Shown here: positions 44,861 to 62,223 of the stretch, in pieces
Layout: the number at the start of each line of letters is the position of its first letter
Position numbering within the stretch: position 1 is the first letter of the stretch
Position numbers and translations under genes: made by a program
Assembly (NCBI GenBank): GCA_019455325.1
Contig: JACFMQ010000004.1
Location: forward strand, 321,247 to 385,246
Length of the DNA stretch: 64,000 bases
Source: Rhodocyclaceae bacterium
GTDB lineage: Bacteria > Pseudomonadota > Gammaproteobacteria > Burkholderiales > Rhodocyclaceae
Direction of reading: 5' to 3'
The notes under the pieces: generated by a model
Database searches by the model: none
What the model was told of the DNA's origin: nothing
What the model saw: the letters and a program-made list of their open reading frames with translations, nothing else

Positions 44861-46225
44861 TCACCCGCCCAGAGTGCCGAGATAGCCGTTGATCGACATC
44901 AACAGCTCTTCGTCGACGCTGCCGGCCAGCGCGTGCAGCCGCAGCCGGGCCATGATGAATTCGTAGCGGGCCTGGGCCAGGTCGCGGCGCGCGCTCATCA
45001 GTTGCTGCTCGGCGTTGAGCAGGTCGATCTGCGTCCGGGTGCCGGCCTGGATGCCCTTGCGGGTCGAGAAGATCAGCCGGCCCGCCGATTGCTCGGCCTG
45101 TTCGTAGGCGCGAATCTTCAGGAGGCCCTCGGCCACGGCCTGGAATTCGCGGCGGACCCTGACCGAGGTGTCGAGGCGCTTCGCTTCGTATTCGTGGCGA
45201 TACCGTTCCAGCGAGGCGCGGGCGCGGTCGGTGCTGGCCGAGGTATGGCCGCCGGCGAACAGGGGGATGTTGATCTGCACGCCGACCATGGTGTTGTCGT
45301 AGCCGGAGCTGGACGAGGTCGGGTTGTCGCTCTGCGCGTCGGTTTTCTGGGCGACGAGATCGAGCGTCGGCAGGTGGCCGGCGCGCTGCTTGCTGAGTTC
45401 GCGTTCGGCGGCGGCGACGGAGGCGGCGAGCGAGCGCAGCTCGGGGTTGGCGGCCTCCGCCTTGTCGATCCAGCCGGCGAGCTGCGCCGGCTCGACCGCC
45501 TGCAGCGAGAGACGCGCCGGGTCCAGCCGGGCGAGCGATTCGACCGGGCTGTCGATCAGCGCCTCGAACTGGTGGCGGGCGGCGAGCAGCGCCTGTTCGG
45601 CGACCAGTTGCTGGGCCAGGCTGAGATCGAGCCGGGACTGGGCTTCGTCGATGTCGGTGCGGGTGCCGGCGCCCTTTTCGAAGCTGCGCTGGGCGGACTT
45701 GAGCAGCCCGTCGGTGGCGGCGACCTGGGCGCGGACGTGGTCGAGCTGGTCCTGGGCGAGCAGGGTTTCGAAATAGGCGCCGCCGATCTTCACGGCCAGG
45801 TCCTGCGCGCTCTGGTCGAGGCGCGCTTCCGCGGCCTCGACCACGGCCTCGGCCTGCCGGTAGCCGTAGTAGAGCTGCGGGCGGAACAGGGGCTGGCGCA
45901 GGGTCAGGGTCTTGTTGTGGCTGAAATAGTCGGATTCCGAGGTGACGGTCTGGCCCAGGATGTTCTTGTTGCGGGATTCGAGGTCGTTCTTGAAGCGGCT
46001 CATCGACCAGGACAGGTTCGGTAGCATCTGCGCCCGCGCCATCGGCATTTCCTGGCGGTCGGCGTCGGCCTGGGCGCGGGCGGCGAGCCAGGTCGGGTTC
46101 TTGGCGAGCGCCAGGCGCCAGCTTTCGAGTAGGTCGATCGACCAGGCGGGGCCGGCGAGCAGGCCGCCGAGGCCGAGCGCCAAGATCAGGCGGCGCGGAA
46201 TGTCGAGGCGGCGGCGCATGTTCAT
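44861..46225 (-). CDS. Type I secretion outer-membrane channel, TolC family
   Basis: This 454-residue protein has a signal peptide ending near GPAWS (about residue 29) and TolC-type repeats with long helices (SIDLLESWRLALAKNPTWLAAR, GTRTDIDEAQSRLDLSLAQQL, GTRTQIDLLNAEQQLMSARRDLAQARYEFI). It forms the outer-membrane duct for the ABC/HlyD exporter encoded upstream. An ATGA overlap with the HlyD gene supports the ATG at 46225. It is the last gene of the secretion operon. Confidence 0.93.
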   Translation of the reverse strand: MNMRRRLDIPRRLILALGLGGLLAGPAWSIDLLESWRLALAKNPTWLAARAQADADRQEMPMARAQMLPNLSWSMSRFKNDLESRNKNILGQTVTSESDYFSHNKTLTLRQPLFRPQLYYGYRQAEAVVEAAEARLDQSAQDLAVKIGGAYFETLLAQDQLDHVRAQVAATDGLLKSAQRSFEKGAGTRTDIDEAQSRLDLSLAQQLVAEQALLAARHQFEALIDSPVESLARLDPARLSLQAVEPAQLAGWIDKAEAANPELRSLAASVAAAERELSKQRAGHLPTLDLVAQKTDAQSDNPTSSSSGYDNTMVGVQINIPLFAGGHTSASTDRARASLERYRHEYEAKRLDTSVRVRREFQAVAEGLLKIRAYEQAEQSAGRLIFSTRKGIQAGTRTQIDLLNAEQQLMSARRDLAQARYEFIMARLRLHALAGSVDEELLMSINGYLGTLGG

Positions 46226-47613
46226 TCCTCCGTCAGCGAGGCGGCGACGCGCTTGACCAGCGGATGCAGCAGGTAGGTCAAGAGCGACCGGTGCCCGGTC
46301 TTGATCACGACCTCCGCCGGCATGCCCGGCTGCATGGTCCGCTTGCCGAGTTTTTCCATGCCCTGGGGCGTGATCGCGGCGCGGGCGAGGTAGTACGGCG
46401 GAATCTGGCCCGCGGGGTCGGAGAGCAGGTCGCCGGAAATCGACAGCAGGCGGCCTTCGACCACGAGCTGCGGCGAATGCGCGAAGGCGTTGAAGCGCAC
46501 GTCGACCAGGTCGTCGGGCTTGACGCGGTCGATCAGGTGGGGCGGCACGTGGATTTCGAGGAGCAGGGTCTCGTTGTCCGGGACCACGTCCATCACCGTC
46601 TGGTAGGGCTGGACGACGCCGCCGACCGTCTGGATCTTCAGGCCGACGACCTGGCCGGTGGTCGGCGCCTTGATCTCGGTGCGGCCGAGCTCGGCGGCGG
46701 CGGCGCGCAGCTTGTCGGCGTCGGCCTCGACTTCGCGGCGCACCTCGGCGAGATGGGTGTCGATTTCCTTCTGGTATTCCTGCTTGCGCTGCAGGGTGCG
46801 CATCTTCAGTTCGGCGATCGCGTTCGCCGTGCGCGCGGCGTTGCCCTGGAGGTCGGCGGTGCTGGCGCTGACGTCGGCGAGCAGGCGCTCCAGCTCCATC
46901 TGCCGGGTGCGCGGCGCGTAGCCTTCGGCGACCAGTTCGCGGATGCCCGTCAGTTCCTCGCGCAGCAGGGCGATCTGGCTGTTGCGGTGCGGCAGCATTT
47001 CCTTGAAGCCCTGCTGGATCGACTGCTGGCCGCGGATCGATTCCTCGATGCCCTGCAGCTCGGCCTGCAGGGCGAGGCGGCGGGCGCGCAGCAGGGAGGT
47101 CTGGTTGTCCATGTGCTGCTTGACGAAGGGATCGCCCGCCGCGGCGACGAGGTCCGGGTGGAAGTCGATCGCCTCGGCGCCGAGTTGTTCGGCCAGCAGG
47201 CGGCCTTCGAGCGCGCGCAGGGCGACGTAGTGCTGGCGGATGGCCTCGTAGTTGGCGCGGGTGGTGCCGTCGTCGAGGCGGATGACCGTGTCGCCTTCGC
47301 GGACCGTCTGCCCTTCGTGGACCAGGACTTCCTTGACGATGCCGCCCTGCTGGTGCTGCACCGACTTGCGCTTGGTGTCGAGCATGACCGTGGCCGCCGC
47401 CGGCACGCCCTCGTCGAGCGGCGCGAAGGCCGCCCACAGCAGGAACAGCCCCAGCCCGTAGCCGAGCACGCGGTAGCCGAGGCGCATCGGGCGGGCGGTG
47501 TCGACGGCGAGCTCCGGCGCGCCGTCGAGGGTTTCGCTCGCGTGCGCCCGGCTCGGCAGGAGTTTTTGCAGCGGCCTGGCGAGGAGCGAGGTCTTGTCGT
47601 TCTTGTCGTCCAT
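46222..47613 (-). CDS. Type I secretion membrane-fusion protein, HlyD/PrtE family
   Basis: This 463-residue protein has one membrane helix at about residues 46-64, long coiled-coil helices (about residues 150-300) and lipoyl-like halves with GGIVKEVLVHEGQTVREGDTVIRLDD and IKAPTTGQVVGLKIQTVGGVV. It bridges the ABC ATPases and the TolC-like channel. It lies 37 bases after the first ABC gene and overlaps tolC by 4 bases. Confidence 0.95.
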   Translation of the reverse strand: MDDKNDKTSLLARPLQKLLPSRAHASETLDGAPELAVDTARPMRLGYRVLGYGLGLFLLWAAFAPLDEGVPAAATVMLDTKRKSVQHQQGGIVKEVLVHEGQTVREGDTVIRLDDGTTRANYEAIRQHYVALRALEGRLLAEQLGAEAIDFHPDLVAAAGDPFVKQHMDNQTSLLRARRLALQAELQGIEESIRGQQSIQQGFKEMLPHRNSQIALLREELTGIRELVAEGYAPRTRQMELERLLADVSASTADLQGNAARTANAIAELKMRTLQRKQEYQKEIDTHLAEVRREVEADADKLRAAAAELGRTEIKAPTTGQVVGLKIQTVGGVVQPYQTVMDVVPDNETLLLEIHVPPHLIDRVKPDDLVDVRFNAFAHSPQLVVEGRLLSISGDLLSDPAGQIPPYYLARAAITPQGMEKLGKRTMQPGMPAEVVIKTGHRSLLTYLLHPLVKRVAASLTEE

Positions 47614-47650: not shown

Positions 47651-49402
47651 TCAGGCGCCGGCGGCCGGTGTCTGCAGGGCGCGGATCACCTCGTCGCGCG
47701 GGCCGTAATGCTGGATGCGGCCCTGCACGAGCACGAGCAGGGCGTCGGCGACGCCGATGATCTGCGGCCGGTGGGTGGTCAGGAAAACGGTCTTGCCGGC
47801 GGCCTTGAGGGCGAGGATGGTCTTCTGCAGCGCGGCCTCGCCCTCGCTGTCGAGGTTGGCGTTGGGTTCGTCGAGCACGATCAGCGACGGATCGCCGTAG
47901 ATCGCCCGGGCCAGCGCCAGGCGCTGGCGCTGGCCGCCGGAGAGGGCGCTGCCCGCCTCGGCGATCGGCGAATCGTAGCCCTTGGGGAAGCGCAGGATGG
48001 TTTCGTGCAGCCCGGCGGTCTTGCTGGCGGCGATGACCTTCTCCGGGTCGACCGTGTCGAAGCGGGCGATGTTCTCGGCGATGCTGCCGTCGAACAGTTC
48101 GACGTCCTGCGGCAGGTAGCCGACGTAGCGGCCGAGTTCGTTCCTGTCCCAGCGCTGGATCGGTTCGCCGTCGAGCAGCACCTCGCCCTCGGTCTGCGGC
48201 CAGATGCCCAGCAGGCAGCGGGCCAGCGTGGACTTGCCGGAACCCGACGGGCCGAGGATGGCGGTGACGCTGCCGGCGGGGAATTCGGCGCACAGGTCGT
48301 GCAGGATCGGCGTTTCCCGGCCCGGCGCGCGGGCGTACAGGTGTTCGAGCCGGACCGCCGGCGAAAGCTCGGTCGGCGTCAGTTGGCCGCTGCGCTCGGG
48401 GTGTTCGGCGAGCAGCCCTTCGAGCCGGACGAAGGCGTCGCGCGCCTTGAAGAAGCTCTGCCAACTGCCCATGATCATGTCGATCGGCTGCAGGGCGCGG
48501 CCCATCAGCACGTTGGCGGCGATCATGGCGCCGACGGTGAGGTCGCCCTCGATCACCAGCAGCGCGCCGGCGCCGAGCACCAGCGATTGCTGCGAGTAGC
48601 GGAAGAACTTGCTGATCGACTGGATGCGCTGGCCGACGTCGGTGTTCAGCGACTGCGCGGCCAGCGCGTTGCGGTGCCGGCCGAGCCAGCGCTGGCGCAG
48701 CGCCGGCAGCATGCCCATGGCTTCGATGACTTCCGAGTTGCGCAGCTTGCTCTGGGCGAAGCGGCTCTCCTGCAGCGCGGCCTCGGCGGCGCCGGCCTGC
48801 GGCTGGCGGGCGAGGTGCTGGGAGGCGACGGCCAGGCCGACGAACAGGGCGGCGAAGCAGACGGCGATGAGCCCGAGCCACGGACTCAGCAGGCAGAGGA
48901 CGAGAATGTAGATCGGCGTCCACGGCGCGTCGAAGAAGGCGAAGGCGCCGTTGCCGGTGGCGAACTGCCGGACCTGGGCGAGGTCACCGAGCGCCTCGCG
49001 CGAAACGTGCGTCTGCCCCTTGAGGTTGGCCTCGAAGGCGGCGTGGAAGACGCGCGGGCTGAGCACCTTGTCCATCTTGACGCCGATGCGCACCAGCAGG
49101 CGCGAGCGGATCCACTCGGAGAAGGCCATCACCGCGAACAGGAAGAGCGTGATCAGCGAGAGCACGACCAGCGTCAGCATGTTCTGGCTGATCATGACGC
49201 GGTCGAAGATCTGCAGCATGTACAGCGTCGGCGTCAGCATCAGCAGGTTCACCACCAGGCTGAAGACGGCGATGGCCCGGAATTCCGGCAGGAATCCGGC
49301 CAGCGAGCGGGTCAGTTCGCTGCGCGCGAAGAAGGCGCGGATCTTCCCCGACGGGGCGTCCGGGCGGGCCGTGGCGGCGGCGGGCAGGGTCAGGCTTTTC
49401 AT
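47651..49402 (-). CDS. Type I secretion ABC transporter, PrtD family (first of two)
   Basis: This 583-residue protein fuses a six-helix membrane domain to an ATPase domain with Walker A GPSGSGKST, signature LSGGQRQR, Walker B LIVLDEPNANLD and a switch His in LTTHRP. No C39 peptidase domain is present, as expected for the PrtD/HasD group that exports RTX-type substrates. The ATG at 49402 gives MKSLTLPAAA. It lies 7 bases after a second ABC gene of similar size, so the two may form a heterodimer. Confidence 0.93.
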   Translation of the reverse strand: MKSLTLPAAATARPDAPSGKIRAFFARSELTRSLAGFLPEFRAIAVFSLVVNLLMLTPTLYMLQIFDRVMISQNMLTLVVLSLITLFLFAVMAFSEWIRSRLLVRIGVKMDKVLSPRVFHAAFEANLKGQTHVSREALGDLAQVRQFATGNGAFAFFDAPWTPIYILVLCLLSPWLGLIAVCFAALFVGLAVASQHLARQPQAGAAEAALQESRFAQSKLRNSEVIEAMGMLPALRQRWLGRHRNALAAQSLNTDVGQRIQSISKFFRYSQQSLVLGAGALLVIEGDLTVGAMIAANVLMGRALQPIDMIMGSWQSFFKARDAFVRLEGLLAEHPERSGQLTPTELSPAVRLEHLYARAPGRETPILHDLCAEFPAGSVTAILGPSGSGKSTLARCLLGIWPQTEGEVLLDGEPIQRWDRNELGRYVGYLPQDVELFDGSIAENIARFDTVDPEKVIAASKTAGLHETILRFPKGYDSPIAEAGSALSGGQRQRLALARAIYGDPSLIVLDEPNANLDSEGEAALQKTILALKAAGKTVFLTTHRPQIIGVADALLVLVQGRIQHYGPRDEVIRALQTPAAGA

Positions 49403-49409
49403 GAGGGAC

Positions 49410-51146
49410 TCAGGCAGCGGAGGGGGAAGCGGCCGGAACGGCGGCGGGCCGCGGCGCATTGTTGCCGGAAAGCGCGGCGAGAACCTCGTCGCGCGGGCCG
49501 AAGAGCTGGGCCTGGCCGTCGCGCAGGACGAGCATCTTGTCGACGACCGACAGGATGTTGGTGCGGTGCGTGATCAGGACGAGGGTGGTGCCGCGCGACT
49601 TCAGCGTCGCCAGCGTGTGCAGCAGGGCCTGCTCGCCGCTCTGGTCGAGGCTGGCGTTCGGCTCGTCGAGGACGAGCAGGCTCGGGTTGCCGTAGATGGC
49701 GCGGGCGAGCGCCACGCGCTGGCGCTGGCCGCCGGAGAGGAAGCTGCCTTCCTCGCCGATCAGCGTGTCCAGGCCGTCCGGCAGGGCGTCCACCAGGTCG
49801 CGCAGGCCGGAGAGGTCGATGGCCTCGGCCAGTTGGGCGGGGTCGACCTCGCCGAAGCGGGCGATGTTCTCCGCCAGCGTGCCGTCGAACAGCTCGACGC
49901 CCTGCGGCAGGTAGCCGATGGCCGGGCCGAGTTCGTCCTTGTTCCAGGCGAAGATGTCGGCGCCGTCGAGCCGGACCTTGCCGCTCAGCGTCGGCCAGAC
50001 GCCGACCAGCAGGCGCGCCAGCGTGGTCTTGCCCGAGGCCGAGGGACCGACGATGGCCAGCGCCTCGCCGGCGTTCAGGGCAAAGCCGACGCCGCGCAGG
50101 ATGGGCACCTGGCTGCCCGGCGCGCCGGCGACGACGCCTTCGACCGACAGTTGCCCCCGCGGGCGCGGCAGCGACATGCTTTCCGGCTGCGCGGGGAAGG
50201 CCGTCAGGAGCTTGTCCAGGCGCGCATAGGCGTTGCGGGCGCCGACCAGGGACTTCCACTGCGTCACGAGCTGGACCAGCGGCGCCAGCGCCTTGGCGCC
50301 GACGATGGAGGCGACGATCATCATGCCGGCGCCGCCGGCGAGCGTGCCCTGCAGCGCATAGACCACGCCGAGCGCGAGCAGCCCGGAGGACAGCGTCTGC
50401 TGCAGGAACTTCGAGGCCGCGCCGTTGGCGCCGGCGTGGTCGGAGGCCACGGCCTGCTTGGCCAGCATTTCGTCCTGGTGCTTGAGCCAGCGCTGGTAGA
50501 TGGGCTGGATCATGCCCATCGACTCGATCACCTGCGCGTTCTTCAGGGTGTTGCCGACGTAGGTCTGCGCGGCGATGCCGGCCTGGTTGGCCTCGGTCAG
50601 CGGCTTCTGGGTCTTCAGCTCGGCGCGCCAGGTGAGCGCCACCTGGCCGAGCAGCGCGACCAGCGTCACCGCCCCGAGCATCGGGTGCATCAGGAAGACC
50701 AGGAACAGGTAGAGCAGCGAGAACGGCGCGTCGAGCAGCGCGAGCATGGCGCGCGAGCCGAGAAAGTCGGCGAAGGCCCGGAAGTCGCGCAGCGCCTGGA
50801 GCTGCGAGCGGCCGCTGCGCAGCCCGGCGGCGAAGACGGCGTCGAACACGCGCCGGCTCAGGCGTTCGTCGAACTCCAGGGCGCCGTGGTGCATGACCTG
50901 CTCGCGCACCCATTCGAGAATCTCCAGGAGCGCGTACAGGCCGAGCGCGAGCACGGTCAGCATCAGCAGGGTGACGCCGTCGCGGCTGTTCACCACGCGG
51001 CCGTAGACTTCCAGCATGTAGAGGCTGGGCGTCAGCGACAGCAGGCTGCACAGCAGCCCGAGGCTGAACAGCCGGCGCAGGAAGCGGCGCAGGGCGTTGA
51101 CTTCGCCCGCCAGCTCGGGCGTTGCGGCGGAGGGTTGCCGGCTCAT
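49410..51146 (-). CDS. Type I secretion ABC transporter, PrtD family (second of two)
   Basis: This 578-residue ABC exporter has six helices and an ATPase domain with Walker A GPSASGKTT, signature LSGGQRQR and Walker B LLVLDEPNASLD. All catalytic motifs look intact. It differs clearly from the neighbouring ABC protein, so it is not a recent duplicate. Its start overlaps the TnpB-like gene by 4 bases. Paired PrtD-type ATPases are less common than single ones in type I systems. Confidence 0.93.
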   Translation of the reverse strand: MSRQPSAATPELAGEVNALRRFLRRLFSLGLLCSLLSLTPSLYMLEVYGRVVNSRDGVTLLMLTVLALGLYALLEILEWVREQVMHHGALEFDERLSRRVFDAVFAAGLRSGRSQLQALRDFRAFADFLGSRAMLALLDAPFSLLYLFLVFLMHPMLGAVTLVALLGQVALTWRAELKTQKPLTEANQAGIAAQTYVGNTLKNAQVIESMGMIQPIYQRWLKHQDEMLAKQAVASDHAGANGAASKFLQQTLSSGLLALGVVYALQGTLAGGAGMMIVASIVGAKALAPLVQLVTQWKSLVGARNAYARLDKLLTAFPAQPESMSLPRPRGQLSVEGVVAGAPGSQVPILRGVGFALNAGEALAIVGPSASGKTTLARLLVGVWPTLSGKVRLDGADIFAWNKDELGPAIGYLPQGVELFDGTLAENIARFGEVDPAQLAEAIDLSGLRDLVDALPDGLDTLIGEEGSFLSGGQRQRVALARAIYGNPSLLVLDEPNASLDQSGEQALLHTLATLKSRGTTLVLITHRTNILSVVDKMLVLRDGQAQLFGPRDEVLAALSGNNAPRPAAVPAASPSAA

Positions 51147-51793
51147 GGGGAGACTCCGGTCTGGGCCTGGGGTGGCGGGGGGACGAGGGGCACGGGATCG
51201 TTCTCGGTGATCAGCAGGTATTCCGGCAGTTCGGGCGCGTCGCCCTTGGCGGCCGGCGTTTCATCGGCATTCGGGCTGCCCAGCCGGAAGCGCAGCGCAT
51301 AGCGGCCGCCGGTTTCGGACAGGCAGATTTCCTTCAGTTTCTCGTGGGCGAACATGGCTTCCTGCGTTTCATTGAGATTCACGCGGAACTTCATGCGGCC
51401 TTCGAGGGTATACATGGACAGCACCCCCTTGCGCAGGCTCAGCGTGTGGCGGTCGAAATACACCGGCGCCGACGGCGCGAAGCGCACCTGCGGCAGCGGG
51501 CGGTTGCCGGCGGCCGGGGCATGGAACGGGCTTTGCGGATTCTGGAACAGCAGGCGACAGGCGCGGGAGACCGAATAGATGGCATTGCACACCATTTGCG
51601 AACCCAGGTCGGGAAAGCGTTCCCGCATCTCGTGGTAGACGAGGTGGTGCAGGGCGACGCGGTTCCAGCAGCGCTGGGCGAGCGCGCGCCCGGCCACGGC
51701 GTTGCAGACCTCGGCGAAGGTCTGCTGCAGGGCGTGCAGGCTCTGGCGCTGCGCCGGGCTGGTGTCGAGCGGAATGGCGATCAGGTGATCCAT
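51143..51793 (-). CDS. TnpB/OrfB-like N-terminal protein without RuvC domain, first gene of secretion operon
   Basis: This 216-residue protein has the TnpB (IS200/IS605 OrfB) N-terminal layout: a PTPEQ-like start (DTSPAQRQSLHALQQTF), FAEVCNAVAGRAL, NRVALHHLVYHEMRERF, LGSQMVCNAIYSV, then VRFAPSAPVYFDRHTLSL and MYTLEGRMKF. In TnpB these belong to the REC and WED parts that hold guide RNA and target. The protein ends just where RuvC should begin and continues as an Asp/Pro-rich tail, so no nuclease acids remain. It is the first gene of the secretion operon, overlaps the ABC gene by ATGA and shows no transposon ends. It could be a domesticated regulator, as in TnpB-derived repressors, or have another role. 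The ribosome site (GGGAG) is unusually far, 14 bases upstream. Confidence 0.75.
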   Translation of the reverse strand: MDHLIAIPLDTSPAQRQSLHALQQTFAEVCNAVAGRALAQRCWNRVALHHLVYHEMRERFPDLGSQMVCNAIYSVSRACRLLFQNPQSPFHAPAAGNRPLPQVRFAPSAPVYFDRHTLSLRKGVLSMYTLEGRMKFRVNLNETQEAMFAHEKLKEICLSETGGRYALRFRLGSPNADETPAAKGDAPELPEYLLITENDPVPLVPPPPQAQTGVSP

Positions 51794-51810
51794 GGGCGGC
51801 GATCTTACTC

Positions 51811-51834
51811 CCTATATGAAAAAATTCATATAGG
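51811..51834. promoter_or_regulatory. Perfect 24-base palindromic hairpin upstream of TnpB-like gene
   Basis: CCTATATGAA / TTCATATAGG with a 4-base A/T loop lies 17 bases before the TnpB-like start and is markedly AT-rich. It may be an operator for the divergent secretion and manC transcripts or a leader hairpin. The only ribosome-site-like GGGAG overlaps its lower edge. Confidence 0.55.
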
Positions 51835-51907
51835 TTGGGTTATCATGGCGGCTGAACCGGAAACGCCGGCGCCGGGAAACCCCGATCCGGCGGAAACGCG
51901 GGCTTTC

Positions 51908-52041: not shown

Positions 52042-53469
52042 ATGCATCCAGTACATATCGTTCCCACCATCCTCTGCGGCGGCGTCGGCTCCCGCCTCTG
52101 GCCGCTTTCCCGCGAGGCGCACCCCAAGTCGTTCATCCGGCTGGAAGACGGGCAGAGCCTCGTGCAGAAGGCGTTCCTGCGCGGCGCGACGCTGCCGGGC
52201 GTATCCGAAGTGCTGACCGTGACCAACCGCGATCTCTTCTTCAAGATCGAGGACGAGTTCGCGGCGGTGAATCCGGGCGATACCGCCACCGCCTTCATCC
52301 TCGAACCCTTCGGCCGGAACACGGCGGCGGCCGTGGCCGCCTCCGCCCTGTACGTCCAGGAGACGCACGGCGAGGACGCGCTGCTGCTGATCCTCGCCGC
52401 CGACCACCTGATCGCCGACCCGCAGGCGTTCTCGGCGGCGGTCGCCGAGGCGGCCCGGCTGGCCGCGGACGGCGGGCTGGTGACCTTCGGCATCCGGCCG
52501 CATGCGCCGGAAACGGGCTACGGCTACATCGAGGCGCAGGGGACGCAGGTGCTGCGCTTCGTCGAGAAGCCTTCGCTCGAAAAGGCGGAGGCATTCGTGG
52601 CGTCGGGGCGCTTCTACTGGAATTCCGGGATTTTCTGCTTCTCCGCCGGCTGCATCCTGGAGGCGATGGCGAAGCACTGTCCGGCGGTCCTCGCCGCGAC
52701 GCAGGCGTGTTTTGCGCAATCCCGCCGCCGGGCGCAGGGGCAGCGGTTCTTCCAGATGGAACTCGATTCCGCCCGCTTCGAGGCGGTCCCCGACATCTCC
52801 ATCGACTACGCCGTGATGGAGAAGGCGGAGAACGTCGCCGTCGTTCCCTGCGACATCGGCTGGAAGGACATCGGTTCGTGGACGGCGCTGGCCGATCTGG
52901 GCGAACCCGACCCGGACGGCAACCTGATCCGGGGCGACGTCACGCTGCTCGAAACCCGCAACTGCATCATCCAGAGCGACGACCGGCTGGTCGGCGCCGT
53001 CGGCATCGAGGACCTGATCGTCATCGACACGCCGGATGCGCTGCTCATCGCCGAAAAAGGGCGGGCGCAGGACGTGAAGCACCTCTACGCCGAACTGAAG
53101 GCCCAGGGGCATGAGGCCCACCGGCTGCACCGGACGGTCCACCGGCCCTGGGGCACCTATACGGTCCTCGAAGAGGGCGAGGGATTCAAGATCAAGCGGC
53201 TCGTGGTCAAGCCCGGCGCCAGCCTCAGCCTGCAGATGCACCGCCACCGGAGCGAGCACTGGGTGGTCGTCAGCGGCACCGCCCAGGTGGTCAACGGCGA
53301 CAGCGAACTGCTGATAAACACCAACGAGTCGACCTACATTCCCGCGGGCAACCGCCATCGCCTGTCGAACCCCGGCCAGCTCGACCTCGTCGTGATCGAG
53401 GTGCAGAGCGGCGGCTACCTCGGCGAGGACGACATCGTCAGGTTCGACGACATCTACGGCCGGGCATGA
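52042..53469 (+). CDS. manC: Mannose-1-phosphate guanylyltransferase / mannose-6-phosphate isomerase
   Basis: This 475-residue bifunctional enzyme makes GDP-mannose. The N-terminal nucleotidyltransferase has ILCGGVGSRLWPLSREAHPKS and FVEKP. The C-terminal cupin isomerase has HRPWGTYTVLEEGEGFKIKRL and MHRHRSEHWVVVSGTA. Length matches ManC/AlgA. It is divergent from the secretion operon and overlaps the next gene by ATGA. GDP-mannose could feed exopolysaccharide or glycosylation of the secreted surface proteins, but no glycosyltransferase is in this window. Confidence 0.95.
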   Translation: MHPVHIVPTILCGGVGSRLWPLSREAHPKSFIRLEDGQSLVQKAFLRGATLPGVSEVLTVTNRDLFFKIEDEFAAVNPGDTATAFILEPFGRNTAAAVAASALYVQETHGEDALLLILAADHLIADPQAFSAAVAEAARLAADGGLVTFGIRPHAPETGYGYIEAQGTQVLRFVEKPSLEKAEAFVASGRFYWNSGIFCFSAGCILEAMAKHCPAVLAATQACFAQSRRRAQGQRFFQMELDSARFEAVPDISIDYAVMEKAENVAVVPCDIGWKDIGSWTALADLGEPDPDGNLIRGDVTLLETRNCIIQSDDRLVGAVGIEDLIVIDTPDALLIAEKGRAQDVKHLYAELKAQGHEAHRLHRTVHRPWGTYTVLEEGEGFKIKRLVVKPGASLSLQMHRHRSEHWVVVSGTAQVVNGDSELLINTNESTYIPAGNRHRLSNPGQLDLVVIEVQSGGYLGEDDIVRFDDIYGRA

Positions 53470-53993
53470 GGCCGGCGGGCACGGACGCCATGCGGCAATT
53501 GCAGCGCATCACCACCGAATACGTCGAGGCCGAGGACCGCATCCGCCTCTGCGGCGAAACCGAGTCCGGCGAAACGGCCGTCCTCTGGCTGACCCGGCGG
53601 CTGCTCGCCCGCCTCGTCCCGCACCTGTGCGACTGGCTGACGCAGTCGGCCGGAGACGACGCGCGCGCGGCGCTGCTGAACGGGTTTGCGCAGCAGGCAG
53701 CGGCCGGCGCGCTGGTGCCGCAGCCGCCGGTGCGGGCTGCGGCCGAGGGCGGGAAGCGGGTGGTGCGCTCGATCGACGTCACGGTCGGTGGGGCGGCCGT
53801 GCAGCTGGCGTTCCGCTGCGACGACGGCGCCGACGCCGGCCTCGTCCTGCAGGCGACGCCGCTCCGGCAGTGGCTGGGCATTCTGCACGCGCAGTGCCTC
53901 AAGGGAGAATGGCCGGCGACCGACTGGCCGGCCTGGATCGCCGAGGGCCGCCTGCCGGTGTCGGCGGGCGGTGGGGCGGTGGTTCTGCACTGA
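53466..53993 (+). CDS. Conserved-looking protein of unknown function, coupled to manC
   Basis: This 175-residue soluble protein has no signal peptide or membrane helix. It starts near RQLQRITTEYVEAEDRIRLCGE and contains VLWLTRRLLARLVPHLCDWL, an alanine-rich middle, and DWPAWIAEGRLP near the end. I do not recognise the family. The ATGA overlap with manC argues for a real, co-translated gene. Its place beside the secretion locus suggests a part in surface-protein production, which is unproven. Confidence 0.7.
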   Translation: MRPAGTDAMRQLQRITTEYVEAEDRIRLCGETESGETAVLWLTRRLLARLVPHLCDWLTQSAGDDARAALLNGFAQQAAAGALVPQPPVRAAAEGGKRVVRSIDVTVGGAAVQLAFRCDDGADAGLVLQATPLRQWLGILHAQCLKGEWPATDWPAWIAEGRLPVSAGGGAVVLH

Positions 53994-54019: not shown

Positions 54020-54349
54020 TCATATTTCGACATGCCGGGTCAAATCCATGCTGTCGTGCAGGATGCGCAGCACATCGATGCAGCAGTCCTCGCTGGTTCG
54101 AAAGACAACGAAGTGCCGACCGTGCCGACCCCGTCGTGCCACATGCAGCGTGCGAATGCCCGGCAGAATGTCATCGCGCCCTTTGGCTCCGGACGCACCG
54201 GGCCCGTCGGTCAAGGCTTCCAGTGCCAGGGTCAGCGTTTCCGCATAGACGCCGGCCTGCCGGGAACCGAAGTGCTCCTCCGTCCACGCCAGAATATCCG
54301 CGATGTCTTGCTCCGCCTGGCGGGCAAGGCGGACTGTCCATGCCGCCAT
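54020..54349 (-). CDS. parE: ParE-type toxin
   Basis: This 109-residue RelE/ParE-fold protein has VRLARQAEQDIADILAWTEEHFG and GRHFVVFRTSEDCCIDVLRILHDSMD, the pattern of ParE toxins that poison DNA gyrase. The start overlaps the ParD stop (TGATG). It is convergent with the gene of unknown function after manC. Confidence 0.93.
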   Translation of the reverse strand: MAAWTVRLARQAEQDIADILAWTEEHFGSRQAGVYAETLTLALEALTDGPGASGAKGRDDILPGIRTLHVARRGRHGRHFVVFRTSEDCCIDVLRILHDSMDLTRHVEI

Positions 54350-54630
54350 CAGCGCGAAGACGCGACTCGCTTGCCTATGGCTGCGATATGCGCGCGCAAC
54401 GAGGCGGCATCGCCGAACGCCGTGTAGCGTCCGGCCTCGATGTCATCCGCGCCGATGACCGCCGCCTCCCGCAGAGCCTGCAATCGTGCTGCATGTTCCT
54501 GCTCTCGCTGCTGAATCAGGCGCAAACCATCGCGCAGCACCTCGCTGGCATTCTGATAGCGGCCAGAAGAAACCAGCTGCTCGACGAAACGAGCCTGGGG
54601 ATCGGTCAGAACGACATTGCGCGTTGGCAT
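54349..54630 (-). CDS. parD: ParD-type antitoxin
   Basis: This 93-residue antitoxin starts MPTRNVVLTDPQARFVEQLV and has SGRYQNASEVLRDGLRLI, the ribbon-helix-helix of CopG/ParD proteins, then a toxin-binding tail. The ATG at 54630 is preferred, and an earlier ATG at 54657 would add nine residues. The inverted repeat ATATT-N5-AATAT (54656-54670) upstream could be its operator. Confidence 0.92.
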   Translation of the reverse strand: MPTRNVVLTDPQARFVEQLVSSGRYQNASEVLRDGLRLIQQREQEHAARLQALREAAVIGADDIEAGRYTAFGDAASLRAHIAAIGKRVASSR

Positions 54631-54655
54631 GGCAAGCCCCGAAAGAATGCTTGGC

Positions 54656-54670
54656 ATATTCTGCCAATAT
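54656..54670. promoter_or_regulatory. Candidate ParD operator
   Basis: ATATTCTGCCAATAT is an inverted repeat (5-bp arms, 5-base centre) 26 bases before the parD start. Confidence 0.35.
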
Positions 54671-54709
54671 CTCTGAAACACCACAACCAGCTTCCCGACA
54701 GGCGCGCCC

Positions 54710-55021
54710 TCACGGCGCCTTCTCGTCGTCGCCGCCGACCGCATCGACGACCGCCGCGCCGGTCTTGACCACCCCCTTGCCAACGAGCACCGCCCCGTCG
54801 ACGGCCACGCCGGCCGCCGTCGTCGCCACGCCGACGGCGGCGCTGGTCACCACCACGGCGGTGGACACCACGCCGCAGCCCGAGAGGCACAGGGCCACGA
54901 GCGCGGCGCCGGCCAGGCGCCGCAGTCCGGCAGTACCTCGCCGGCCGTTTCCCGCGCCGATGCGTCCGCAAGCCTCTGTCGGGATTCGCTTGTAAATACG
55001 TGGCAGCGCCATCATGCGCAT
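54710..55021 (-). CDS. Small lipoprotein, NF038104-like
   Basis: This 103-residue protein has a hydrophobic signal (about residues 35-48) with lipobox LSGC (Cys49), followed by the low-complexity Val/Ala/Gly stretch VVSTAVVVTSAAVGVATTAAG and an acidic end. This matches small proteobacterial lipoproteins of unknown function. Translation may begin later than 55021, since 30 residues precede the signal. It follows the SapC-like gene by 6 bases on the same strand and probably shares its transcript. Confidence 0.75.
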   Translation of the reverse strand: MRMMALPRIYKRIPTEACGRIGAGNGRRGTAGLRRLAGAALVALCLSGCGVVSTAVVVTSAAVGVATTAAGVAVDGAVLVGKGVVKTGAAVVDAVGGDDEKAP

Positions 55022-55835: not shown

Positions 55836-55872
55836 GTAAAAAAAACCCCACACCCGTAGGAATGTGGGGTTG
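55836..55872 (-). terminator. Intrinsic terminator of the giant surface-protein gene
   Basis: A 9-bp stem AACCCCACA / TGTGGGGTT (55844-55852 and 55863-55871) is followed on the minus strand by eight T residues. It lies 46 bases after the stop codon. Confidence 0.93.
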
Positions 55873-55917
55873 GCATCGGAGCACCTTCCCCGAGGGGAAG
55901 GTGTCCTTGCATGCGGC

Positions 55918-58900
55918 TTAGATGGTCAGCGTTTCGACACCAGCGCCGGCATTGAAGACCGAAGCGGTGAGGTCGTGCAGACCCACCAGCTTGACCACGA
56001 TGTCGTTGGCGTCCAGGCCCGTCTGCTGCACCGCGGTAGCGGTGTCGTTCACCATGGCCACCACGTAGGTGTCGCCACCGTACTGGAACCACGTGATCGC
56101 GGCCGTGTTCGCCGCCAGATCGGCCGTGGCCGCCGCCGTACCTTGATCCTGCACCAGCAGCGTGTAGTTGGCGGCCAGGTTCAGGGCATCGGTCAGGCTG
56201 GTGGCGGAAGCCACGTTGACCTGGGAAGCGGCAGTGCTGGCACCGAGCAGGGAGAATGCAGCGGTGCCCACGGTTGCATCGAAGTCGATCACCGTACCCG
56301 TGGCGGCCACCCCCGTTGCGAAGCTGATGGTGGTCATGGCGAAGTTGTCCGCCGTGCCGCCCGTCACCGCGCGATCCACGATGATGGTTTCGGCGCCGGC
56401 GTTGGCCGTGTTGGCCGTACCGATGTTCACCGTGGCATTGGTACCCACCGTGATCGAGGTAGTACCGACACCCGAGGCAACGTTGAACTTCACATCCGCG
56501 CCGGTGGCGGTAATGGTGTTGGTACCCGTACCGACGCTGATGGTGTTACCGGCACCGTTGGCGGTGATGATGTTGGCACCGTTGCTCAGGGTGATGGTGT
56601 TGTTGGCACCCGTTGCCGTGAGGGTGACCACGCCGGTACCCACGTTGGTGGCAGAACCTTGGACGAAGGTGTCGCCCGTGCCGCTGGCGAAGATCGTCGC
56701 AGCCTGACCCACCGCCAGATCGAACTTGACGTTGTTCTGGGCGATGGCATCGCTGGCACTCACACCCAACGCCACGGTGCCGGTTGCATTGACCGTGTTG
56801 ATGTTGGTCAGCGCCGTGCCGGTGATCTTGCTGATGGTCGTGGGACCCGCACCTGCGCCCACCTGGACGGTGTTCACGGTGTTGGTGGCGTCCACCAGTT
56901 CGGAGACCGTCAGCGCCTGGCCGCCGTTCTTGAACTGCACCAGCGCATCACCATTGACCGTCAGACGGTTGATGGTGGTGGCGTTGGTCGCTTGCGTCAC
57001 GGTCAGGCTGTTCTTGCCGGAAGCGCCCACTTGCGTGGTTTCCAGCAGGCCCAGGTGAGCGCCGACGGCGGTGGCGTTGACCACCAGCTCGGCCGAAGCG
57101 GCCAGGTTGGCGAACTTGGTGGTGTTGGTGTTGGCCGCGACAGTACCGGCCACAGCCAGCGTTGCCATCGCAAAGCCGGTGTAGTCCAGGTTGCTGCTGG
57201 TCGCCAGGGCTGCCAGATCCACCGTGGCGTTGGTGAGGTTGGTCACCGTGTCGGACACGATGGTGCCATCACCGAAGGTGGAACCGAAGCCCTTGACCGA
57301 GGCCACGTCCTTCAGCTCGACCACGACGTTGTTGGTGTCGCTGCCAGCACCGGCGCTGCTCTGCAGGGTTGCAGCGTTGTCGGAAGCCACCACGTAGCTC
57401 TTGCCGTTGTGCGAGAAGGCCGCCACCCTGTTGGCCCCGCCGGTGGTGCTGGAGTTCACGATGATCTGCGCTGCGTTGATCAGCTCATTCACCGTGAATT
57501 GCGACAGGCTGTTGCCGCCCGTTGCACCGAAGGTGATCACACCGTTGCTGATGGTGTAGGTCAGGTTGGCCAGCTTGGTGTTGAGCGCACCCGTGGAGTC
57601 AAACACGGCCGCCATGTTGGCTGCGTTGTTCAGGGTGTTCACCACACCCGTCACGGCGTTGGCGACGATGGTCTTGGCTTGCGTAGCGTTGTCGGCCGCG
57701 TTGCGGAAGACAACGGTATCGCTGGCCGACTGGCTACCCACGGTGAAGGCGGTGACACCCCCCTTGCTGCCGTTGTCGGTCACGACGGCGCCTTCCCTCA
57801 GCACCAGCGTATCGACCTTGGCGGCGGAAGCCGACAGGTTGACCGTTTCGCTGCCGGAGCCGAACTTCTTGGTCACGGTGCTGAACGAACCACCCAGACC
57901 CGCCTTGTACTCGCCGCCGCCCGAGCCGGTGATGAACTCGTTGTTGACGGTGGTCATGTTGATGGTACGAGCAATCGTCGAACCAGCGTTCCATGTACCG
58001 GACTCATCGACCAAGTTGGTCTGGCCAAGCTGGCTGGTGATCACCACGATGCTGCCCACAGCCACCGCAGAAGAGACACCGGGGACATTGGCCGCCGTAA
58101 TGGCTGCCGCAAGACCGGTAGCACCCTGGGCGGCAGTCTCTACACCGCCGGCCGTATAGGTGTAGGCGACACCGTTGATGGTCGCAATCAGGGTTTCGGC
58201 GCCGGTGCTCGCACCAGAGACCGTGATCACATCCACCTGCTGACCGCCCAGCAGGCTGTCGGCGATGGTGCCGTTGGTCCCGGTTTCGGTAGAGCTCACC
58301 TCAAAGGCCGTACCGGACTGCAGCACGATGTTGCCACCGCTCTGGGTTGCCATGTTGGTTGTGGCGACGCCTGCGCCAGCAGTGGTTCTTACCACCGGGC
58401 CAGTGGTGGCATTGGCGTTGATGGCGGCAGCCAGTGCGGCTGCCACTTCTGCCGCAGTGGCGTTGCCCGCAGCGGTGTAGGTGTAGATGCTCGCGTTATT
58501 ACCCTGGCCGATGGTCACGACGGCCGTCTCACCGAACGCCCAGTTCGGTGCCGCGGAGCCCGCCAGCGTCACCAGCGCCTTCACGTTGCCAGAGTCGTTG
58601 GAACCCGCTGCGACCAGCTTGGAAGCGCCGCCCGTGAAGGTCACGCCGCTGTTGGAGACAGCGGCAGCCGTCACATCCACGGTGGTGCCGGTGTTGCCGG
58701 AAGCGTTGATGCTGGTGAAGCCGGTGTCGGCGGTCAGGGTCAGGCTGGAAGCACCGCCCACGGTCAGCGTGGCTGCGCCGTTGGAGGCTACGCCGTTGAT
58801 GGTGGCGGTGTTGCCGACACCCGCAGCGGTCTTGCCGACGGAATTCACCGTCAGGGCTTCCACGCCATTGGCGGTGATGATGCCGGTGCCGGTGCCGCCG

Positions 58901-61900
58901 CCTGCGGCAGCAATCGCGGTTGTGCCGCTACCCAGGTTGACCGTCATGGCGGTGTTGGTGGCCGAGTAGTTGGCACCGACCACGGAGACAGTATCGTCGG
59001 TGGTGTTTGCCAGCACATCGAGCGTCAGGCCGGTAGCCGTGTTGCTGAAGGTAACGTTGCCGGCGACCGCGCCCACCTGGACGGTGGAGAAGCCGGAGGC
59101 GTCGTAGTTGCCGCCAGCGCTGTTGGCCAATGCACCCAGGCGCAAGATTTCAAAGCCCTTGACGTTGGCGGCGTTGCCAAGCGCCACGTCGGTGCCGGCG
59201 GCGGCGTAGTTGGCGACCAGTACGTCAGCAGAACCGTTGCCGCCATCGATGGTGGCCTTGCTGCTCCAGCCCGAGGCGTTGCTGTTGATGGTGACGGTAT
59301 CCACACCCGAGCCGCCCTTGTAGGACTGCACTTCGTCGGTGGTGGTGGTCATTTGCAGCGCAGCGGTCACGTTGCCCGTTGCGGCCGAGGCGTCCACCGT
59401 CTTGGCCTTGGACAGGTTGCCCGTGCCGAAGCTGCCCGAGGCGGACAGATTCACGTTGCCCGCGCCCTTGAGCGTGACCGTCGCGATGTCGCTCGTTACA
59501 CCGCCCAGATTGATGGCAGCCGCAGCGGCGTTGTCGATGGTGACGGCGGTCGCCTTGGTGGCATCCACTCGCAGGGTGGCGGTGGAGGCGGTGCCGTTGT
59601 CCTTGACGGTGATGCTGCCGGCCTTGGCGTCGACCACCGTGATGGTGTTTGCCGCAGCGGTGTTGTTACCCTGGGTAATGGTCAGCGCGTGAGCGTCGGT
59701 ATTGTTGGTGATGGTGATGGTGTCGCTCAGCGCCTTGGTATTGACCACCGTCAGGTTTTCCAGCGCGTCGGAAGTAATAGCCACGCCGTCGGCGGCTTGC
59801 AGGCTGTCGATGACGACGTTCTTCAGCGTGCTGGTGCCCACGGCCTTGCCGGCATTGCTGCCGCCGGTGGCCAGGGTGGACTGGATATCGACGATGCTGT
59901 CGACGTCGCCACCGGTGACAGAAACGGTTTCGGCGCCGTTGGTGTTGACGTTGACATTGCCCGTGCCGTAGGCGGTCTGGCTGCCGGAGACGGTCTTGTT
60001 GACGATGGTGACGTTGCCGGTCGGCGCCAGGTTGGCGTCCTTCAGCGCGGTGCCGGCCGCGTTGAGTGCGGCGGAGGCGCCGCCGACGGTGATGGCGCCG
60101 GAAGTCTTGGTGGTCGTGATGTCCACCGTGGTGCCGCCCTGGACGGTGACGGTATCCGCACCGACGCCGCCGAAGGTGTTGGTGACCTTGACCGCGCCGC
60201 TGGGCACGGTGTTCACGCCGCCGACCACGCCGCCCACGGCCACGTTGCCGCCGGTGGTGTTGATGGTGACGTCGGTGCCGCCACGCACGGTGACGTTGCC
60301 GGGATTGGTGCCGTTGAGCACGGCGTTGGCGTTGCCGGTGAAGATGTCGGCCTGGTTGACCACCACGGCGCCGGTCGGGGCGCTGGCCACGGCGGTGCCG
60401 ATGTTGACGGTCTGGCCCTTGGCGTTGACGGTGACATCCTTGCCGCCGTCGATGGTGACGGTGCGGCCGAAGCCTGCGCCATTGTGGGTTTGCGTGACGG
60501 TGACGTCGCCGGTGGGGTTGCTGGCCTGGTCGGTGACGGCATTGGCAGCGCGACCGATGGTGACGTTGGAACCCGTGGTGGTGACGGAGACGTCGGTACC
60601 GCCGGTGATGTTGATGGCACCTGCGGCGGCCGCGGTTTCGATACCCGTGTTGGTCACCGTGATGGCACCGGTCGGGTTGAGGGCGTTTTCCCTGGCAGCG
60701 TTGCCCACCTGGCCGACGTTGATGACGTTGGCGGCGTTGGTGGTGATGCTGACATCCTTGCCGCCATGTACGCCGATGGCGCCGCTCACGACGTTGTTGT
60801 TGGCGGAGCCGGCCAGGCCGTTGTAGGCGATCTGGGCGGTTTCGGTGATGGTGACGTTGCCCTTGGGCAGGTTGGAAGGGTCGCGATAGAGGACATCGCC
60901 GACGGTGATGGCGCCTGCGCCGCTCAGCGCCGTGCTGGCAATGGTGACGATGTCGCCGCCGAAGACGGTGACGGCGCCGGTGCCGGCGGTGTCGACGGTG
61001 ATGTCGCCGGAGGCGTTGGCGATGGCGCCGGCCTTGTTGTTGCCGGTGTTAGCGGCGGTGTTGCCGATATTGATGGCGCCGGTGTTGGAGGTGGAGGTCA
61101 CCGTGGCCTTGACCGTGGTACCGCCGAACACGTTGATGCCGCCTGCTGCCGTGTTGTTGACGGTGACGTCAACCGCGCCGGTGGCAACCTGCTGGGCGGT
61201 GGGCACCGACGCCAGGGTCTGGTTGCCGACCCGCACGCCCGCGCCGCCGTTGGCGGTGACGGTGACGTCGTGGCCGCCGTCGACGCGCACGCCCGAGAGC
61301 GGGTCAAACGAGAGCTGCGTGACGGTGACCTTGGTCGCCGTGCCGAAATTTTCGTTGCCGGCGATGTAGAGATCAGCGTTGCCCGCACCCTGGGTGCTGG
61401 CCTTGAGTTCATTGACCGAAGCGAAGTCGCGCGTGCGCAGGCCGCCGCCGGCGGTGTTGGCAGCGGAGTCGAGCTCGACGATCTGGACGTTGTGGAGCGT
61501 CACGCCGGCCGGCAGGTTGTTCTGTGCTGCATCCGGCGTCAGGTCGGTGATCAGCAGCTTGTTGTCGGTGCGGCCGTCCGTGCCGCGGAGCACATCGCCC
61601 GGATTCAGCGTCGGGCCCTTGCCGTCCACGTTGTAGCGGGTTTGCGAGGCGATGAAGGTGTGGGCGGTCCGTTCGTCAAGACCCGTAGTGAGCGTGAAGG
61701 TTTCGCCAGCGAGACCGCCACCGGCGGCCGACACATTGACGACGGCTTGGTTGACCTGCTCTTGAGTCGCGGGCGTGGTGCTGACGGTCTTCAGGAAATC
61801 GCGGGCGGCGTTGGCAGCGGCCGTGCCGCTGTAGCCCAGGATTTCAGCGGTGGTGTCCAGACCGTCGGTGAACAGCTTGGAAGAGGCGAGCTTGTTTTCG

Positions 61901-62223
61901 ACAGCCGTCTTGTCTGCGTTGGCAGCGCCGTTGAGGATGCCGAGGGCGGCTTCCAGCGGCTTCAGGCGGCCGCTGTAGACTTCGTTGGTCCAAAAGGCCA
62001 GGCCGGCGGGTTCGGCGTCGCGATTGAACAGGATGTTGTAGATCGCGTTGACCTGAGCGGCGTTGAACTCGGAGCCGTAGAGGGCCTTGGATTCGTTGGA
62101 GGCGCTGAAACCGGCGATCACTTCAGCGTCGGTCTTGCTGGCCCAGTACTGCAGACCATCGAAGTCGACCGGACGGCCGAAATATGCCAGGTATGCCTTG
62201 GTCAGAAAATCACGGCTAGCCAT
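55918..62223 (-). CDS. Giant DUF4214-containing S-layer/adhesin-like secreted protein
   Basis: This 2101-residue protein has no cysteine. Residues about 1-125 carry two DUF4214-like units (YLAYFGRPVDFDGLQYW, ILFNRDAEPAGLAFW). Residues about 311-745 hold eight repeats of about 55 residues marked by GG[TKH][DT]V. The rest is beta-rich with sparse RTX-like motifs. The C-terminus WFQYGGDTYVV...DIVVKLVG resembles that of the 40086 protein. A similar piece recurs near residues 1600-1641. No Sec signal is present, which fits type I export by the operon at 44.8-51.8 kb. Base composition is less GC-rich than its neighbours. AGGAG precedes the ATG. It is probably a surface layer or adhesin. Confidence 0.9.
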   Translation of the reverse strand: MASRDFLTKAYLAYFGRPVDFDGLQYWASKTDAEVIAGFSASNESKALYGSEFNAAQVNAIYNILFNRDAEPAGLAFWTNEVYSGRLKPLEAALGILNGAANADKTAVENKLASSKLFTDGLDTTAEILGYSGTAAANAARDFLKTVSTTPATQEQVNQAVVNVSAAGGGLAGETFTLTTGLDERTAHTFIASQTRYNVDGKGPTLNPGDVLRGTDGRTDNKLLITDLTPDAAQNNLPAGVTLHNVQIVELDSAANTAGGGLRTRDFASVNELKASTQGAGNADLYIAGNENFGTATKVTVTQLSFDPLSGVRVDGGHDVTVTANGGAGVRVGNQTLASVPTAQQVATGAVDVTVNNTAAGGINVFGGTTVKATVTSTSNTGAINIGNTAANTGNNKAGAIANASGDITVDTAGTGAVTVFGGDIVTIASTALSGAGAITVGDVLYRDPSNLPKGNVTITETAQIAYNGLAGSANNNVVSGAIGVHGGKDVSITTNAANVINVGQVGNAARENALNPTGAITVTNTGIETAAAAGAINITGGTDVSVTTTGSNVTIGRAANAVTDQASNPTGDVTVTQTHNGAGFGRTVTIDGGKDVTVNAKGQTVNIGTAVASAPTGAVVVNQADIFTGNANAVLNGTNPGNVTVRGGTDVTINTTGGNVAVGGVVGGVNTVPSGAVKVTNTFGGVGADTVTVQGGTTVDITTTKTSGAITVGGASAALNAAGTALKDANLAPTGNVTIVNKTVSGSQTAYGTGNVNVNTNGAETVSVTGGDVDSIVDIQSTLATGGSNAGKAVGTSTLKNVVIDSLQAADGVAITSDALENLTVVNTKALSDTITITNNTDAHALTITQGNNTAAANTITVVDAKAGSITVKDNGTASTATLRVDATKATAVTIDNAAAAAINLGGVTSDIATVTLKGAGNVNLSASGSFGTGNLSKAKTVDASAATGNVTAALQMTTTTDEVQSYKGGSGVDTVTINSNASGWSSKATIDGGNGSADVLVANYAAAGTDVALGNAANVKGFEILRLGALANSAGGNYDASGFSTVQVGAVAGNVTFSNTATGLTLDVLANTTDDTVSVVGANYSATNTAMTVNLGSGTTAIAAAGGGTGTGIITANGVEALTVNSVGKTAAGVGNTATINGVASNGAATLTVGGASSLTLTADTGFTSINASGNTGTTVDVTAAAVSNSGVTFTGGASKLVAAGSNDSGNVKALVTLAGSAAPNWAFGETAVVTIGQGNNASIYTYTAAGNATAAEVAAALAAAINANATTGPVVRTTAGAGVATTNMATQSGGNIVLQSGTAFEVSSTETGTNGTIADSLLGGQQVDVITVSGASTGAETLIATINGVAYTYTAGGVETAAQGATGLAAAITAANVPGVSSAVAVGSIVVITSQLGQTNLVDESGTWNAGSTIARTINMTTVNNEFITGSGGGEYKAGLGGSFSTVTKKFGSGSETVNLSASAAKVDTLVLREGAVVTDNGSKGGVTAFTVGSQSASDTVVFRNAADNATQAKTIVANAVTGVVNTLNNAANMAAVFDSTGALNTKLANLTYTISNGVITFGATGGNSLSQFTVNELINAAQIIVNSSTTGGANRVAAFSHNGKSYVVASDNAATLQSSAGAGSDTNNVVVELKDVASVKGFGSTFGDGTIVSDTVTNLTNATVDLAALATSSNLDYTGFAMATLAVAGTVAANTNTTKFANLAASAELVVNATAVGAHLGLLETTQVGASGKNSLTVTQATNATTINRLTVNGDALVQFKNGGQALTVSELVDATNTVNTVQVGAGAGPTTISKITGTALTNINTVNATGTVALGVSASDAIAQNNVKFDLAVGQAATIFASGTGDTFVQGSATNVGTGVVTLTATGANNTITLSNGANIITANGAGNTISVGTGTNTITATGADVKFNVASGVGTTSITVGTNATVNIGTANTANAGAETIIVDRAVTGGTADNFAMTTISFATGVAATGTVIDFDATVGTAAFSLLGASTAASQVNVASATSLTDALNLAANYTLLVQDQGTAAATADLAANTAAITWFQYGGDTYVVAMVNDTATAVQQTGLDANDIVVKLVGLHDLTASVFNAGAGVETLTI
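59990..61293 (-). repeat. Eight coding repeats of about 55 residues
   Basis: GG[TKHD]-[DTI]-V-[TSK] motifs occur at residues about 316, 367, 422, 487, 541, 593, 648 and 697 of the giant protein, spaced 49-65 residues. Units are divergent at the DNA level. Confidence 0.75.

Follow-up and report, generated by a model that had tools for sequence, protein, structure and literature searches.

The window, that is, the whole 64,000-nucleotide stretch of a Rhodocyclaceae bacterium genome analysed here, carries on its minus strand a type I secretion operon whose first gene, tnpB-N (51143..51793; 216 aa), encodes the WED-REC lobe of a TnpB protein without its RuvC domain. It is followed, in the order ABC1, ABC2, HlyD and TolC, by genes on the same strand for two PrtD-type type I secretion ATPase/permeases (ABC1, 49410..51146, and ABC2, 47651..49459; NCBIfam TIGR01842, E = 1.6e-189 and 3.5e-201, respectively), a HlyD-type membrane fusion protein (46222..47613; TIGR01843, E = 4.1e-94) and a TolC-type outer-membrane protein (44861..46210, with an approximate start and a name given by position and sequence). 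The TGA of tnpB-N and the ATG of ABC1 share the ATGA at 51143-51146, which bears out the coupling to the ABC gene noticed in an earlier sequence-only reading of this DNA, and the open reading frame that this reading had described as TnpB-like is real; the four motifs quoted for it are all present in the order stated, on the minus strand, a strand that the reading had left unstated. The gene has a single copy in the window genome. The same reading had seen neither tnpA nor transposon ends, and we find likewise no match to the Y1 transposase (PF01797) anywhere in the window genome and, in the 267 bp 5′ of tnpB-N, only two listed inverted repeats (that is, an operator palindrome and one GC-rich pair). 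The GC-rich pair (51864-51892; 13 nt, imperfect, 77%) lies about 70-100 bp upstream of tnpB-N, a position similar to that of the left-end hairpin of related transposons, and could be due to chance.

The palindrome consists of two putative operator half-sites, TTCATATAGGG (51810..51820, minus strand), which differs from the 11-bp sequence TTCATATAGGA by one mismatch, and TTCATATAGGT (51825..51835, plus strand), which stands back to back with it in inverted orientation. Between these and the start codon, a weak candidate −10 element, TAAGAT (51802..51807, minus strand), can be picked out by eye; it is not among the elements found by a promoter scan and is called by analogy with other loci. The wider neighbourhood holds a repetitive DUF4214 protein of 2101 aa (55918..62223, minus strand), a likely export substrate, whose N-terminal relatives are encoded near the operon at two other loci (L055 and L147). 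On the plus strand, 53466-53993 encodes a 175-aa protein with no Pfam match that adjoins a mannose-1-phosphate guanylyltransferase/isomerase gene and has homologues near seven other tnpB-N loci (L033, L034, L037, L040, L046, L146 and L148). A ParD/ParE-type toxin-antitoxin pair (54020-54783, minus strand) and a PIN-domain protein adjoining the secretion operon (44117-44530, minus strand) were also observed.

Sequence profiles recognize the product of tnpB-N poorly. Alone it has no Pfam match, its score against the NCBIfam transposase N-terminal domain TIGR01765 (16.6 bits, E = 0.0056) lies below the cut-off of 47.25, and this model detects only 1 of 28 short members of the family; a phmmer search of the PDB returned a single match judged irrelevant (E = 0.2) and hmmsearch of the PDB with A1 returned none. 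Structure prediction gave an AlphaFold model of high confidence (pLDDT 90.6, pTM 0.84), for which all 21 Foldseek matches in the PDB at E ≤ 0.001 are chains of Cas12f, dCas12f, TnpB or Cas12k (for example, dCas12f, PDB 9n9c, at 1.9e-6 and ISDra2 TnpB at 2.7e-5, with Cas12f also matched), and the query-normalised TM-scores of these matches, 0.40-0.63, indicate similarity at the level of the fold rather than close superposition. A full-length relative is also available: in a genome of the same genus (G217), locus L027/L058 holds a 404-codon open frame with the motif GIDVGENN, a zinc ribbon and matches to PF07282 and PF01385, and over the lobe its product shares 41-42% identity with the window protein. 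Both Pfam domains are likewise detected in a second full-length protein, L059, and both are absent from tnpB-N, whose 28 aligned short members (197-227 aa) end after WED. The TnpB origin and the missing RuvC domain proposed from the letters alone are thus upheld, by fold as well as by sequence likeness to a full-length TnpB, and we take it as confirmed, on the grounds of modelling and alignment, that tnpB-N corresponds to a TnpB WED-REC lobe without RuvC or zinc ribbon.

A search of 297 genomes from the window's family yielded 27 with a match no weaker than E = 1.6e-29; of these, 26 encode a short homologue (E < 1e-37), and in the 27th the match is the full-length L027/L058. A profile search across the order (300 genomes) added seven short proteins from families f2, f8, f10 and f49, and a 274-genome sample of the class yielded only the window's own protein, so that the short homologues total 35, all intact open reading frames, in five families of the order. 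Two of the loci belong to Caenimonas soli (L031) and Tibeticola sediminis (L032), both Comamonadaceae of the Burkholderiales, from which we infer that the remaining genomes are Burkholderiales as well. The alignment of 28 short proteins has a mean column identity of 57%. In a tree built from these 35 and the N-termini of 11 TnpBs, all the short proteins form a single clade (bootstrap support 97, or 100 for the branch that separates them from the long proteins), with the TnpBs L058, L153, L182 and L157 nearest to it, and dN is lower than dS in all eight related-genome pairs (dN 0.05-0.21, dS 0.27-1.37; two methods, with two of the eight pairs resting on one method). These patterns indicate that the short tnpB-N genes are under selection and of one descent.

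A decaying IS fragment without function, the reading that scattered remnants would have favoured, does have one real representative (the broken remnant L162, described below); set against 35 intact, conserved frames in five families, a fixed neighbourhood and the low dN in every pair, we regard it as scarcely credible. Weaker places in the 297-genome search (E 1e-8 to 0.01), seven of which were inspected, lie outside the 35 counted, and one of them, L028/L059, is a full-length TnpB. Another six of these records (L060 in G213, L061 in G073, L062 in G130, L063 in G026, L064 in G174 and L066 in G079) encode REC-like proteins of about 100 aa (for example, FAEACEKLAPFF..RWGNVTLDHLAYRVVRENYPELSFEEVHVLV) with 26-38% identity to the REC part of tnpB-N (E 1e-6 to 0.003) and with no match to WED, the operator or exporter genes in the fetched stretch; these are possibly a further, REC-only derivative, or a chance likeness. 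A plasmid collection gave one match, a full-length TnpB record, and an unverified 4.9 kb phage scaffold (L186; MT839988.1) contains a stretch at 1863-2300 that is 35% identical to the window protein.

The linkage to secretion genes is constant. A same-strand ABC exporter gene directly follows tnpB-N at 35 of 35 loci (28/28 for the window and L031-L057, 7/7 for L146-L152), including L041, where the contig ends inside the ABC gene, and L052 and L057, which have one ABC gene only. At three loci (L148, L149 and L151) a same-strand tolC precedes tnpB-N. That a domesticated TnpB lobe has become a fixed member of a secretion operon of type I, as the sequence-only reading had suspected, is well supported.

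What the lobe might do there is suggested by the DNA in front of the operon. One to three copies of TTCATATAGGA, in varied orientation, lie upstream of the gene, with an exact copy at 26 of the 35 loci and a copy within one mismatch at 31, where shuffled sequences lead one to expect 0.00 and 0.08 loci, respectively; two or more separate sites are present at 23 of the 35. The four loci without such a site upstream of tnpB-N are L032, which has only a variant near the start, and the three at which tolC comes first: L148 and L151 carry two exact copies, 16 bp apart, before tolC as the first gene, and L149 carries only the variant TTCATATA, also before tolC. Of the 39 exact copies counted in 27 whole genomes, 37 are at the tnpB-N operon promoter; of the remaining two, one is elsewhere and the other (L058 3035-3045) overlies the start codon in the full-length TnpB gene, a placement shared with many tnpB-N genes, so that the site may be older than the domestication. 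Among the 297 genomes, an exact copy occurs in 22 of 26 with the gene and in 22 of 271 without it (G217, with L058, included), the reversed pattern, used as a control, is present in 24, and two exact copies within 35 bp occur in 13, all of which have the gene. In the window genome, the pair TTCATATAGGG and TTCATATAGGT represents the sole copies of TTCATATAGG, and one-mismatch matches to the 11-mer number three elsewhere, compared with seven for the control. A rigid dimer site is unlikely given the variable spacing (15-44 for inverted pairs, 13-61 for direct pairs). Coding constraint was rejected as an explanation of the operator, as 40 sites away from the start codon share the same 11 bp (these were chosen at no more than one mismatch, which inflates the inner positions) and as the sites in L148 and L151 stand before tolC.

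Operons without the gene provide a second line of evidence. We fetched 15 loci, all with a strong, best-ranking match to ABC1 and all in genomes where no tnpB-N match was better than E 0.001; in eight of these (L165-L169 and L173-L175) the best match was not of the ABC1 type, and they were not counted as double-ABC operons. None of the seven double-ABC operons without an intact gene has a site, not even CATATAGG, within the 16-17 kb fetched for each. In an ABC1 tree of 39 operons (FastTree, midpoint root, read without branch supports; L041, L052, L057, L165-L169 and L173-L175 omitted), the seven occupy about five separate places among the gene-bearing operons, for which joint loss of gene and operator is the simplest reading. 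One of them, L162 (G212), retains a 51-aa tnpB-N remnant just upstream of ABC1 and no operator; its congeners L033, L034 and L037 keep both gene and operator. The sites therefore stand at the gene's own promoter and are absent together with it, as is expected of an autoregulator, and this co-occurrence and joint absence strongly suggest that tnpB-N is what binds the operator. The sites do resemble ordinary operators, and they might instead belong to an unrelated transcription factor, with tnpB-N employed otherwise, perhaps in the assembly of the exporter or in RNA binding. Such a factor, however, would leave it to be explained why 37 of 39 exact copies fall at tnpB-N promoters, why all seven operons without an intact gene are free of sites and why the site starts like the target-adjacent motif (TAM) of the protein's own relatives, and we consider it distinctly unlikely.

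This last likeness can be read from the transposons themselves. In IS200/IS605 elements, the left-end flank serves as both the target and the TAM. Copies of related full-length elements are alike from TTCAT onwards, with AGAA and then the left-end hairpin coming next: the TTCAT start is found in three copies in G388, in six of the seven copies listed in G315 and in two of three readable copies in G442, and in L058 TTCAT lies 16 nt before the hairpin. L153, which is 68% identical to L058, has GTCAT before its hairpin instead, and for L182 the left end could not be placed in the upstream DNA. TTCAT is thus the likely TAM of these relatives, its five-base length being assumed by analogy with ISDra2, and the operator begins with this candidate ancestral TAM and continues with six fixed bases, L153 being the exception among the relatives. 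ISDra2 TnpB is reported to read TTGAT through Y52, S56, K76, F77, Q80, T123 and N124 (PMC10097598). The positions aligned with the first five of these (Y53, R57, S65, Q66 and C69) show no variation among the 28 aligned short proteins, although the alignment to ISDra2 is weak: MAFFT places gaps at ISDra2 K76/F77, hhalign sets GSQMVCN on ISDra2 residues 75-81 at E = 0.18, and T123/N124 were matched by eye. Given the gaps and the hhalign score, the residue mapping is best taken as a lead.

The placement of the sites hints at the effect of binding. At 22 of the 35 loci one copy overlaps the start codon (TATATGA), and an alignment of these 22 shows a preference for T at −13 and A at −12 (14 of 22 each), T at −16 (13 of 22) and G at −15 (12 of 22), which has the look of an extended −10 element between the two sites; no ribosome-binding site is visible by eye. 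At many loci one site lies over the −35 region and another over the start codon, and in the window the two sites stand back to back at −42 and −27. Binding over the −35 region and the start codon or likely transcription start would block RNA polymerase, and repression is accordingly the effect that we infer. The start-codon copy and the ability of inverted sites to pair would also suit translational control by an mRNA hairpin that hides the start codon, and the lobe could alternatively be an activator. However, with a likely −10 between the sites the upstream arm would lie outside the transcript, 10 of the pairs are direct repeats, and in L148 and L151 the sites precede tolC, so that activation or a hairpin seems unlikely to us, and autorepression by the lobe remains the preferred reading.

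A further question is whether a guide RNA takes part. The sequence-only reading had guessed at regulation of the exporter or its substrates, perhaps with a small RNA; the regulatory part of this guess has gained a concrete form in sites found almost nowhere but at the operon promoter, whereas the small RNA found no support in cis. Shared 8-mers were sought in five regions at up to 32 loci, taking the best six per region (L033, L037 and L047 were left out, and the window stands for L001). Upstream of tnpB-N the best six are all operator, in the ABC2-HlyD gap and after tolC they are shared no more widely than in shuffles, and at the gene junction they look coding. The tnpB-N frame has no extra synonymous constraint (O/E 1.035, compared with 1.129 for ABC2), and a search of 12 kb with Rfam produced nothing at the gathering score; a sub-threshold NsiR1 match at 55837-55890 was judged to be chance. 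By these three approaches, all confined to cis, no TldR-type guide RNA was found beside the gene.

One signal is consistent with a guide. The four bases that follow the core are more alike within a locus than between loci (0.45 compared with 0.30; 0 of 2,000 shuffles; 23 loci), and after thinning of congeners, in an analysis that left out L033, L037, L044, L047 and three loci lacking sites near the gene, the excess persists for inverted pairs (0.47 compared with 0.32, p = 0.004); for the 10 direct pairs it is not significant (0.33 compared with 0.28, p = 0.31), and on the other side of the core there is no significant excess. Such agreement would suit a minimal TldR-like regulator, in which the retained WED-REC lobe relies on a short guide RNA, either supplied in trans or hidden, with a seed AUAGGA that would pair beside the TTCAT TAM at the operon promoter. 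Six bases after the TAM is also the length of the TldR seed, and mutations in seed nucleotides 1-6 are reported to relieve repression by TldR (PMC13418256), which fits RNA guidance. Set against this are the missing guide signal in cis, the direct repeats without extra agreement and the fact that the omega RNA scaffold of TnpB is bound by WED together with RuvC (PMC10097598), which is gone here. We hold such a regulator to be conceivable but doubtful, and rank readout by the protein alone first, as the same 11 bp recur across families in which a guide and its targets could have drifted together and as the RuvC part of the RNA platform has been lost; participation of a guide RNA thus seems improbable.

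On the basis of these comparisons, we propose the following hypothetical scenario. An IS200/IS605-type TnpB may have lost its RuvC/zinc-ribbon half and been captured, in what looks like a single event, at the head of a PrtD-type type I secretion operon. What is left, the WED-REC lobe that clamps the TAM duplex in TnpB, would now bind TTCATATAGGA at the operon promoter with a specificity made up of the likely ancestral TAM, TTCAT, and six fixed bases, and negative autoregulation would keep the level of the exporter steady. That the domesticated lobe binds the promoter of its own operon, probably as an autorepressor, through a TAM-type readout extended by six bases is the reading we favour, with a probability of roughly 0.6. 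We give about even odds to the stricter form, in which a clamping lobe has become a guide-free transcription factor of fixed specificity that autoregulates an export operon through an operator formed by the ancestral TAM and six bases. We know of no isolated TnpB lobe that binds DNA without RNA. If the lobe does so here, TAM readout by itself can evolve into operator specificity, and regulation can pass from RNA-guided to protein-guided; an RNA-guided machine would then have been turned into a conventional DNA-binding regulator. The proposal offers a testable route (one small protein and an 11-bp site) and a lead on the control of PrtD-type exporters in these bacteria.

A search of the open-access literature by title and abstract opening returned no RuvC-less TnpB in a secretion operon, and the arrangement is best placed by comparison with known systems. 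Classical helix-turn-helix autorepressors are encoded at the head of an operon that they repress; the predicted logic is shared, and the DNA-binding module would here be the TAM-reading lobe of TnpB. The best fold matches to this lobe are dCas12f (PDB 9n9c) and other Cas12f proteins, which are longer and, by their PDB titles, were solved with guide RNA; a role with sigma factors has been ascribed to dCas12f, on which a search of the open-access literature listed no paper. Full-length IS200/IS605 TnpBs (that is, ISDra2 and the relatives L058, L153, L182 and L157) share the WED-REC lobe and a TAM of similar kind (TTGAT in ISDra2 (PMC10097598) and TTCAT in the relatives), whereas tnpB-N lacks RuvC and zinc ribbon, has no Y1 transposase match in its genome and heads a secretion operon. 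The closest parallel is TldR, which is likewise derived from TnpB, has lost nuclease activity, is tied to host genes and has a target that starts at a TAM followed by a 6-nt seed (PMC13418256). TldR, however, keeps an inactivated RuvC, has a guide RNA within its cassette and acts to silence flagellin genes. In tnpB-N, the RuvC/zinc-ribbon half is missing, the search in cis turned up no guide, and the sites lie at the promoter of its own operon: where TldR has kept its guide RNA, this protein has been halved, and the TAM appears to be still legible in the operator.
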